Positions 15,998 to 17,356 of a stretch of 64,000 nt of DNA are shown piece after piece (position 1 is the stretch's first letter; each line of letters begins with the position of its first letter). The stretch covers positions 62,001 through 126,000 of the forward strand of contig NZ_JAOARO010000087.1 of the NCBI RefSeq assembly GCF_025211055.1. Reading direction: 5' to 3'. The notes under the pieces are model-generated. The model was not told the DNA's origin. It ran no database searches and worked only from the letters and a program-made list of their open reading frames with translations. The translations under genes were made by a program, and so were the position numbers. This DNA comes from Vallitalea sp. (GTDB lineage Bacteria > Bacillota > Clostridia > Lachnospirales > Vallitaleaceae).

Positions 15998-16026
15998 TTG
16001 ATTTTTCTTTATAGATATAATATAAT
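15998..16026 (+). promoter_or_regulatory. Strong sigma-A promoter of the structured RNA
   Basis: -35 TTGATT (15998-16003), 17-bp spacer, perfect -10 TATAAT (16021-16026). No coding frame follows for about 400 bases; the expected transcript begins near 16033. Confidence 0.7.
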
Positions 16027-16032
16027 ATTTCT

Positions 16033-16350
16033 TACAATTTTCAACAAAAACCAGCCTTATACTAGTCTTATTCTAAAAAGATAAGGGGTCGCTCCCAAAG
16101 AAATTTTCTAGTGGGTCAAGCGAATAGGAATATGGTATCTTCTAAGTGGCTATCTGCATGACGGAAATCGTAGCAGACCTAAGAGATAAAATTAACTATT
16201 CGTCATGGTTGCTTAATAAGGTTAGATAACTGTCTTGTTAAAGAGGGTTGTGATTATAATATTAGAGTTATATAAATTAAATTAAATAATGGATATAATA
16301 AAAGATCTCTCTTCTAGTTGTATATAGAACTAGGAGAGAGATTTTATTTG
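16033..16350 (+). ncRNA. Independently transcribed structured non-coding RNA of about 300 nt
   Basis: The 470-base gap between two genes has a strong promoter at its head and a 15-bp terminator stem at its end, but no open frame. Between them are several helices: CCTTAT/ATAAGG (16055/16081), CCCA…TGGG (16094-16115), a long-range GCGAATAG/CTATTCGT stem (16120-16127 with 16196-16203), TCTGC/GCAGA with inner ACG/CGT (16153-16177), and TTAATAAG/CTTGTTAA (16213-16241). Local G+C is higher than in other spacers. It does not read as tmRNA, RNase P, SRP or Bacillus-type 6S RNA. The widespread clostridial raiA-motif RNA is one family to test; I cannot confirm it. Confidence 0.6.
16305..16350 (+). terminator. 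Intrinsic terminator of the structured RNA
   Basis: ATCTCTCTTCTAGTT pairs with AACTAGGAGAGAGAT (15 bp, one wobble) around an 8-base loop, followed by TTTATTTGATTTTT. Confidence 0.85.
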
Positions 16351-16432
16351 ATTTTTATTTATGTTATATATCTATTATGTTATAATATAGTCGATAAATG
16401 TAAAAAATGGTAAGTTTAAAGGGGAAAAATAT

Positions 16433-17356
16433 ATGTTTCTATATAAGATAAATGGAACTAATCTAGAACAAGTAGTAGAAAAACCTTTTTCAAAAGAATA
16501 CGAATTACATAAGCTATGTGAAGATAACTTAGCAAATATTTTTGATTTGAAATTCGTCAAAAGAGAATTTGCTCTTAATAATTTTAGGCTTGATACTTTA
16601 GCTTTTGATGAGAACAGTAAAGCTTTTGTAATTATAGAATATAAGAATAATAGTAACTTCAGTGTTATAGATCAAGGATATGCATATCTTTCACTCATGC
16701 TTAATAATAAAGCTGATTTCATACTTGAATACAATGAAAACTGTAAAAGTGTTCTAAGAAAAAGTGATGTGGACTGGACACAATCTAGAATTATATTTGT
16801 ATCACCAACTTTTAATAATTATCAAAAAGAATCAATTAATTTTAAAGATCTACCTTATGAGTTATGGGAAATAAAGAGATTCAATAATGATACAATATAT
16901 TTTAATCAAATAAAAGCATCTAAGAAAGTAGAATCTATAAAAACTATATCAATTACAAGTAATGATATGGAAAAAGTAAATAAAGAAATGAAAGCTTATA
17001 CTGAAGAACAACATCTAATGAACTCAAGTGAAGATATAATTAAGTTATATAAAAAAATAAAAGAATATATATTGGCATTAGACAATACGATAGACATTAA
17101 GGCTAAGAAAATGGAAATAGGCTTTGTATATAATAAAAAGATTATGATAGATATATGTTTACAAAAAAAATCATTAAAGATATGGTTAAACACAAAAACA
17201 GGAACTATAGATGATAAAAGGAATATAACTAAAAATGTTACTAATATAGGTCATTGGGGTAATGGAGATTACGAAATACAGATAAGTAATGATAAAGATA
17301 TTAAATATATTTTTAGTTTAATACAACAAGTATACCAAAAGAGAACATTAGCATAG
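16433..17356 (+). CDS. PD-(D/E)XK nuclease-like / DUF5655 domain protein
   Basis: 307 aa. The N-terminal half (about 1-150) has a PD-(D/E)XK core: D54 (FRLDTLAF), E69-x-K71 (VIIEYKN) and a following Gln (DQGYAYLSLM), as in DUF91-like restriction-type nucleases. The C-terminal part (about 205-305: IKEYILALD…IDIKAKKMEIGFVYNKK…IWLNTK…GHWGNGDYEIQIS) matches DUF5655, a domain often attached to such nuclease folds. Likely a DNA-processing or defence-related protein, but no partner genes are adjacent and its activity is untested. The start follows AAAGGGG. Confidence 0.8.
   Translation: MFLYKINGTNLEQVVEKPFSKEYELHKLCEDNLANIFDLKFVKREFALNNFRLDTLAFDENSKAFVIIEYKNNSNFSVIDQGYAYLSLMLNNKADFILEYNENCKSVLRKSDVDWTQSRIIFVSPTFNNYQKESINFKDLPYELWEIKRFNNDTIYFNQIKASKKVESIKTISITSNDMEKVNKEMKAYTEEQHLMNSSEDIIKLYKKIKEYILALDNTIDIKAKKMEIGFVYNKKIMIDICLQKKSLKIWLNTKTGTIDDKRNITKNVTNIGHWGNGDYEIQISNDKDIKYIFSLIQQVYQKRTLA

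Follow-up and report, generated by a model that had tools for sequence, protein, structure and literature searches.

The window, as we call the whole 64,000-nucleotide stretch of Vallitalea sp. DNA analysed here, contains a gap bounded by a patatin-like gene (stop 15961) and a DUF5655 nuclease-like gene (start 16433). No open frame of at least 60 aa lies within 16033-16350, in agreement with a preliminary description of the locus. Here, we describe the RNA encoded in this gap (Table 1), which to judge from its sequence is almost certainly homologous to domain 2 of OLE RNA (RF01071). Its core (16048-16210) is a miniature OLE homologue, in which the outermost 5' and 3' ends are combined with the conserved domain-2 core, and we refer to it as mini-OLE.

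Table 1. Features of the mini-OLE locus, in window positions.
Feature	Position	Strand	Basis or conservation
Promoter-like site: TTGATT (15998-16003), 17-nt spacer, TATAAT (16021-16026)	15998..16026	+	Arrangement TTG...-17-TATAAT also present in G004 and G003
Mini-OLE RNA core, 163 nt	16048..16210	+	95.6-98.8% conserved in two congeners
Closing helix P1, 5' strand AACCA, pairs with UGGUU 16206-16210	16049..16053	+	Sequence; OLE consensus; MFE of G003 copy
UAUACUAGU, counterpart of OLE 5' consensus UAUuCUAGU	16058..16066	+	OLE consensus; L084 copy; G003 MFE
Hairpin CUUAU...AUAAG, loop UCUAAAAAG	16067..16085	+	Sequence comparison, folding
Small GAAA hairpin (AAA-GAAA-UUU)	16097..16106	+	Counterparts in phage copies and OLE
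OLE domain-2 core, 96 nt	16115..16210	+	Aligns without gaps to 7 other minis and to 25 OLE cores with P12.2/P13 removed
Domain-2 outer helix GCGAAUAG, pairs with CUAUUCGU 16196-16203	16120..16127	+	Covarying; both sides altered in 9/10 pairs of the helix
Middle helix UAUCU, pairs with AGAUA 16184-16188	16136..16140	+	100% of cells paired; both sides altered in 4/5 pairs
Conserved internal loop CUAAGUGGCUAU, in the OLE consensus CUaAGUGGUAAU; ACCUAAG 16177-16183 on the facing strand	16142..16153	+	Alignments
P12 and terminal hairpin: UCUGC/GCAGA, ACG (16161-16163)/CGU (16169-16171), loop GAAAU 16164-16168	16153..16177	+	
Closing helix P1, 3' strand UGGUU	16206..16210	+	Sequence; MFE of G003 copy
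Remnant of a glycoside-hydrolase-like gene, outside the RNA: its last 13 codons (LVKEGCDYNIRVI) with the stop codon	16234..16275	+	Intact 455-aa gene in G004
Intrinsic terminator, from the deleted gene	16302..16345	+	Same terminator after the intact gene in G004

The preliminary description had seen a near-perfect promoter in TTGATT-17-TATAAT. The site is present, and the arrangement TTG...-17-TATAAT recurs in all three genomes that carry the RNA (the window's and those of congeners G004 and G003), with a different gene upstream in G003. TTGATT, however, agrees with the -35 at only 4/6 positions, and 14 promoter-like sites were found against 10.1 +/- 3.3 in shuffles, so that the promoter match alone carries little weight. 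The terminator noted in that description was confirmed, as a strong one (1 found versus 0.1 expected in shuffles), and it largely accounts for how stably the stretch folds as a whole (z -4.5; z -1.1 without it).

The same description had taken about 270 nt and the terminator as one RNA, which places the 3' end wrongly: 16234-16345 is the tail and terminator of a deleted gene. A BLAST search of 59 related genomes detected the stretch in 2/5 other congeners, as two unequal halves. The first half (16033-16222) is 93-97% identical in the two congeners; in G004, 17 kb separate its counterpart from the terminator half. There, the 455-aa gene is intact (L032:435-1802), the identity to the window over 16234-16407 is 84.8%, and the last codons of the gene's frame, LVKEGCEYNIRVI and the stop, are still readable in the window; the name "glycoside-hydrolase-like" was given to it by eye from the sequence, without a family search. 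A convergent sulfatase gene directly follows the RNA in G003 and G004, and the window's lineage has therefore lost about 17 kb, leaving the RNA next to a dead gene's tail. In the window's genome, the terminator probably now ends the mini-OLE transcript.

The scar of the ~17-kb deletion relative to G004 lies at 16216-16302, where the RNA is fused to what is left of the last deleted gene, its tail and its terminator. The genes lost, as they stand in G004, encode a sulfatase, a dehydratase, a resolvase, an ABC transporter and the glycoside-hydrolase-like protein. On the far side, the DUF5655 protein (16433-17356) has a nuclease-like N-terminal half; the site may be a variable defence spot, because G004 carries type I restriction genes at the corresponding place. 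As the RNA lies on the same strand as the DUF5655 gene with a terminator between them, it could be read as a cis-acting leader (riboswitch or attenuator) of that gene. We consider this highly improbable: synteny contradicts it, since the next gene is convergent in two relatives and the RNA is thus no cis-regulator of a downstream gene, and the terminator and the DUF5655 gene were brought next to the RNA by the deletion.

P1 occupies the position of the terminal GUGGUG/CACCAC pairing of OLE RNA, which likewise has a CUAG element near its 5' end. In mini-OLE, ACUAG (16061-16065) pairs with CUAGU (16108-16112), the two CUAG strands being separated by only 42 nt, and the exact OLE 5' element GCAGTATTCTAGT is carried by phage copy L084. 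The loop UCUAAAAAG resembles the CUAAAAA loop of the first 5' hairpin of OLE, a likeness absent in the G003 copy, and the GAAA hairpin has counterparts in phage copies (GGGA-GAAA-UUCC) and in OLE (GAG-GAAAa-CUC). The same three nested helices as in OLE domain 2 (P11-P13) follow, with loops CUAAGUGG, GAAAU, ACCUAAG and AAaUU; the OLE consensus elements matched by the window RNA are the loops CUAAGUGG, GGAAAUC, ACCUAAG and AAAAUUnAC, the UAUnCUAGU element and the GAAA hairpin. P12.2 and P13 of OLE are inserted where mini-OLE has a 2-nt bulge (16159-16160).

Both helices singled out in the preliminary description, GCGAATAG/CTATTCGT and TCTGC/GCAGA, are present, and the covariation that it suggested looking for was found. 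Across eight minis, from this genus and from the phages described below, 94.8% of the cells of 24 pairs are paired, falling to about 40% when partners are slid by one column. Both sides have changed in 19/24 pairs, compared with 12.8 in shuffles, of which 0/500 scored as high. Folded unaided (MFE), the G003 copy forms P1 and P2 as proposed, together with the hairpins and domain 2, and folding of the window copy gives the same domain-2 helices.

An Rfam search, the first step the preliminary description had proposed (raiA RF03072, 6S and others), placed no family above its cut-off in the window, and a permissive scan at E 10 gave no credible match to any family, raiA, tmRNA, 6S and OLE included. 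A covariance model (R1) was then built from the three same-genus copies, with no OLE in it. Against 392 genomes of the order it matched only its source copies; against 391 genomes of the class it matched 13 other genomes, with E-values of 1.6e-4 to 0.044 that come, like all covariance-model E-values here, from shortened calibrations. All 13 of these matches are OLE RNA, at the same place near the OLE 3' end. A second model (R2), built from the eight minis, matched 131 other genomes in a 398-genome phylum sample (Bacillota), and 15/15 checked are full-length OLE.

The reverse search used a model (R3) of 25 OLE-only cores from which P12.2/P13 had been removed. R3 separated the window RNA from the rest of its 3.8-Mb genome as the single significant match (62.3 bits, E 1.9e-11, shortened calibration), and the two congener copies, at 65-66 bits, are each the single significant match in their own genome. 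In the 37 OLE sequences from which a core could be extracted by removing P12.2/P13, every core is 96 nt long, with the same length and register as the minis. The window keeps 31/37 columns invariant in OLE cores and 23/25 of the unpaired ones, an invariance of the loops that is partly built in, as the pattern used to cut the cores required core loops. Of the six changed columns, four make up a pair of compensatory swaps (25/71 and 43/59, both from G-C to C-G). The window RNA does not reach the RF01071 gathering threshold (50 bits).

The preliminary description had likened the RNA to the raiA motif (ModT, RF03072) or, failing that, proposed a new RNA class. Like raiA-motif RNA it is stand-alone and clostridial, and nothing rises above Rfam cut-offs; but no raiA match appears even at E 10, and the strong reciprocal covariance-model matches to OLE domain 2 contradict both ideas, which we regard as scarcely credible.

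The 163-nt core is 98.8% identical to that of G004 and 95.6% to that of G003, compared with 94.5% and 73.3% for the patatin gene and 99.4% and 94.5% for full-length OLE. The core is thus more conserved than the neighbouring patatin gene, and the RNA is therefore under strong constraint. Core conservation, covarying helices and the convergent next gene in two relatives bear out the preliminary proposal of a stand-alone structured ncRNA. The mini is present in only 3/6 congeners; G001, G002 and G005 lack both it and the neighbouring patatin gene. It was found nowhere else in bacteria by covariance-model searches of the order, class and phylum samples (about 1,150 genomes) and two pattern scans (~85,000 species genomes); all matches outside the genus in these searches are full-length OLE. 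One candidate (L083) was rejected as a full-length OLE with a short P13.

The window's genome also has a full-length OLE of its own, which lies on another contig than the mini, at one edge of C32, and is followed by an OapA-like gene; all congeners likewise have an OLE and an OapA-like gene. The OLE of this family has altered domain-2 loops, GGUUGUA-AGGUG...GACUAUAAG in place of GGACUAAGUGG...GACCUAAG, and R1 gave no match to it. The mini is therefore a second RNA and no fresh fragment of the resident OLE, and the idea of a truncated copy of the host's own OLE, with its differing core loops, was rejected. Among the OLE loci of the family (L061-L082), the change is coordinated on both loop strands, from CUAAGUGG/ACCUAAG to, for example, UUGUA-AGGUG/ACUAUAAG. 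This loop, near-invariant elsewhere, constitutes a natural covarying internal loop.

That the mini is a decayed OLE-gene fragment, or a transposed piece without function, would suit its presence in only 3/6 congeners and the rearranged 3' flank in the window's genome. Such decay is nevertheless very improbable. The core has stayed at 95.6% (OLE, 94.5%) while the neighbouring gene fell to 73%, 23/25 unpaired invariant columns are kept, the minis covary, the promoter is kept, and the host's own OLE, given its different core loops, is not the source. Mini-OLE is thus very probably a functional stand-alone RNA.

Its reduction goes beyond that of known OLE variants. OLE RNA is about 600 nt long and includes domain 1, its dimer and membrane part, whereas mini-OLE has 163 nt and lacks domain 1 (P3-P9.3) and P12.2/P13; a short P2-like pairing remains, and P4a, P5, P6, P12.2 and P13 are absent from the sequence. 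In published variants 1 and 2 (TANB77 and RF39 clades; 235-390 bits), only P7-P9 are shortened or lost, plus parts of P13; in variant 1 the end of P13, with its OapB site, is often missing (PMC11332333). Both are reduced OLEs like the mini, but the mini has lost all of domain 1 and the window copy goes unreported by the Rfam OLE model. In genomic context, ole stands in tandem with oapA, whereas mini-OLE lies between patatin and nuclease-like genes. The sites mapped on OLE are P2/P4a for OapA, the P5 k-turn for OapC, P6 for bS21 and P12.2/P13 for OapB (PMC9723947, PMC12054373), and the stem proposed to cross the membrane is P3 (PMC12265935). By comparison with these sites, mini-OLE would offer no complete mapped site for OapA, OapC, bS21 or OapB.

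Pattern scans of IMG/VR yielded five further candidate mini sequences in 11 contigs, which are mostly fragments. In L084, domain 2 is preceded by GCAGTATTCTAGT, a short linker and TCTAGAC; in L086, L087, L088, L090 and their copies, it is preceded by an 8-bp helix formed around GGGA-GAAA-UUCC. Phage genes were identified in both contigs checked (an endolysin in L084, a holin and a sigma factor in L088). In the five scanned phage loci, the minis lie amid many tRNA genes, and in four phage records a ROOL RNA lies ~6 kb from the mini. Full-length OLE and OapA were searched for in the mini-bearing phage records and neither was found. Mini-OLE resembles ROOL (RF03087) and GOLLD in being a structured RNA of phage tRNA islands, at about 1/4 of the size of ROOL; the ROOL and GOLLD covariance models gave no match to the mini, and ROOL is a separate RNA in the same islands. 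Looser viral patterns added chance matches only, and L085 and L096 are chance matches too.

The Rfam OLE model passes its cut-off for L084, L086, L087 and L090 (53-68 bits) and fails for L088 and the window. Searches of GenBank phages and plasmids by blastn, using the window RNA and L084 as queries, gave only short chance matches, as did those of GenBank phages using L090 and L088. A 2025 phage survey used GenBank phages and Rfam models (PMC12286853), a scope within which the minis are absent or near threshold. Our literature search, mostly outside subscription journals, found no paper on OLE-like RNAs in phages; within the literature searched, OLE is thus linked for the first time to phages and to ROOL-bearing tRNA islands.

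The window mini shares 50-58% raw identity with phage minis and 45-58% with OLE cores; these ranges overlap, and a closer likeness to the phage minis is not borne out. In a 96-column tree, a single branch separates the eight minis from 37 OLE cores, with support of 92/78, unstarred and not decisive, so that a single origin of the minis is not established. In the same tree, whose data are short and whose paired columns are not independent, the bacterial copies stand next to the L086/L087/L088/L090 phage set. We suggest, tentatively and against somewhat unfavourable odds, that the minis are a separate, phage-made lineage of stand-alone domain-2 RNAs that act in trans on the host factor recognised by OLE domain 2, for instance to disarm or imitate the OLE complex, and that this genus acquired one from such an element and kept it beside its own OLE.

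OLE, an abundant and membrane-associated transcript, is known only as part of a membrane RNP, and according to a 2025 review there is no evidence for portions of OLE functioning independently (PMC12265935). The part that the mini retains is a highly conserved part of domain 2, left unexplained by published work (PMC9723947, PMC12054373, PMC12265935). That the mini stands alone is supported by the kept promoter, the convergent next gene in G003 and G004, and the phage copies for which no OLE or OapA was found. The best overall explanation, to which we give a probability of roughly 0.55, is a soluble, trans-acting domain-2 module that binds a partner of OLE domain 2, possibly as a decoy. Under this model, transcription would start at about 16033 and yield mini-OLE as a free RNA. 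With OLE's mapped protein sites absent, it would stay out of the membrane RNP and act in solution and in trans. Its conserved loops CUAAGUGG, GAAAU and ACCUAAG would then bind the putative partner, and the odds that this is the same partner as that of OLE domain 2 seem to us evenly balanced.

In phages, and perhaps here, the partner would be captured away from the host's OLE stress complex. A net antagonism of OLE is doubtful, and the mini may oppose the OLE complex as a decoy, substitute for it or be unrelated to it. As the host OLE has an altered core, the mini is not a close mimic of it, which weakens a simple competitor model in this genus.

The mini could instead be an independent effector, in which the domain-2 core works by itself as a small-molecule sensor, a ribozyme or a translation-related RNA, unconnected to the host OLE complex. 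The differing host OLE core makes an interaction with the mini unnecessary, the phage copies lie among tRNAs and ROOL in records where OLE and OapA were not found, and conservation is highest in unpaired loops, as it would be at a ligand or active site. Against it, the parent RNA is known only within the membrane RNP (PMC12265935), and we hold this alternative to be a plausible but less probable one than the partner-binding module.

If the minis are such a phage-made lineage acting in trans, domain 2 would be an autonomous functional unit, open to study apart from the 600-nt membrane complex. As a naturally minimised, free-standing domain 2, conserved in a bacterium and present in phages, the mini is a candidate for an independently functioning portion of OLE, and it suggests that the transmembrane domain 1 is not needed for the role of domain 2. 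The 96-nt core is of a size open to synthesis, probing and crystallisation, and to use as bait for the missing domain-2 partner.

The phage tRNA islands hold further features. Mini and ROOL lie several times in the same orientation within one island. In the 402-kb record IMGVR_UViG_3300032167_000002 (L090, L092), two mini-OLE/ROOL sets lie ~204 kb apart, which means either that a jumbo phage carries its island in duplicate or that the assembly has joined two related genomes. An abiF RNA match (38.5 versus a threshold of 37 bits) occurs at L084:181-217 (- strand), in the same island as the mini. Both scanned contigs encode a DUF2828/DUF7788 vWA protein of phrog_850 ("RNA-binding protein"; L088:3656-5212, + strand, and L084:9431-9853, - strand), a possible protein partner of phage structured RNAs.
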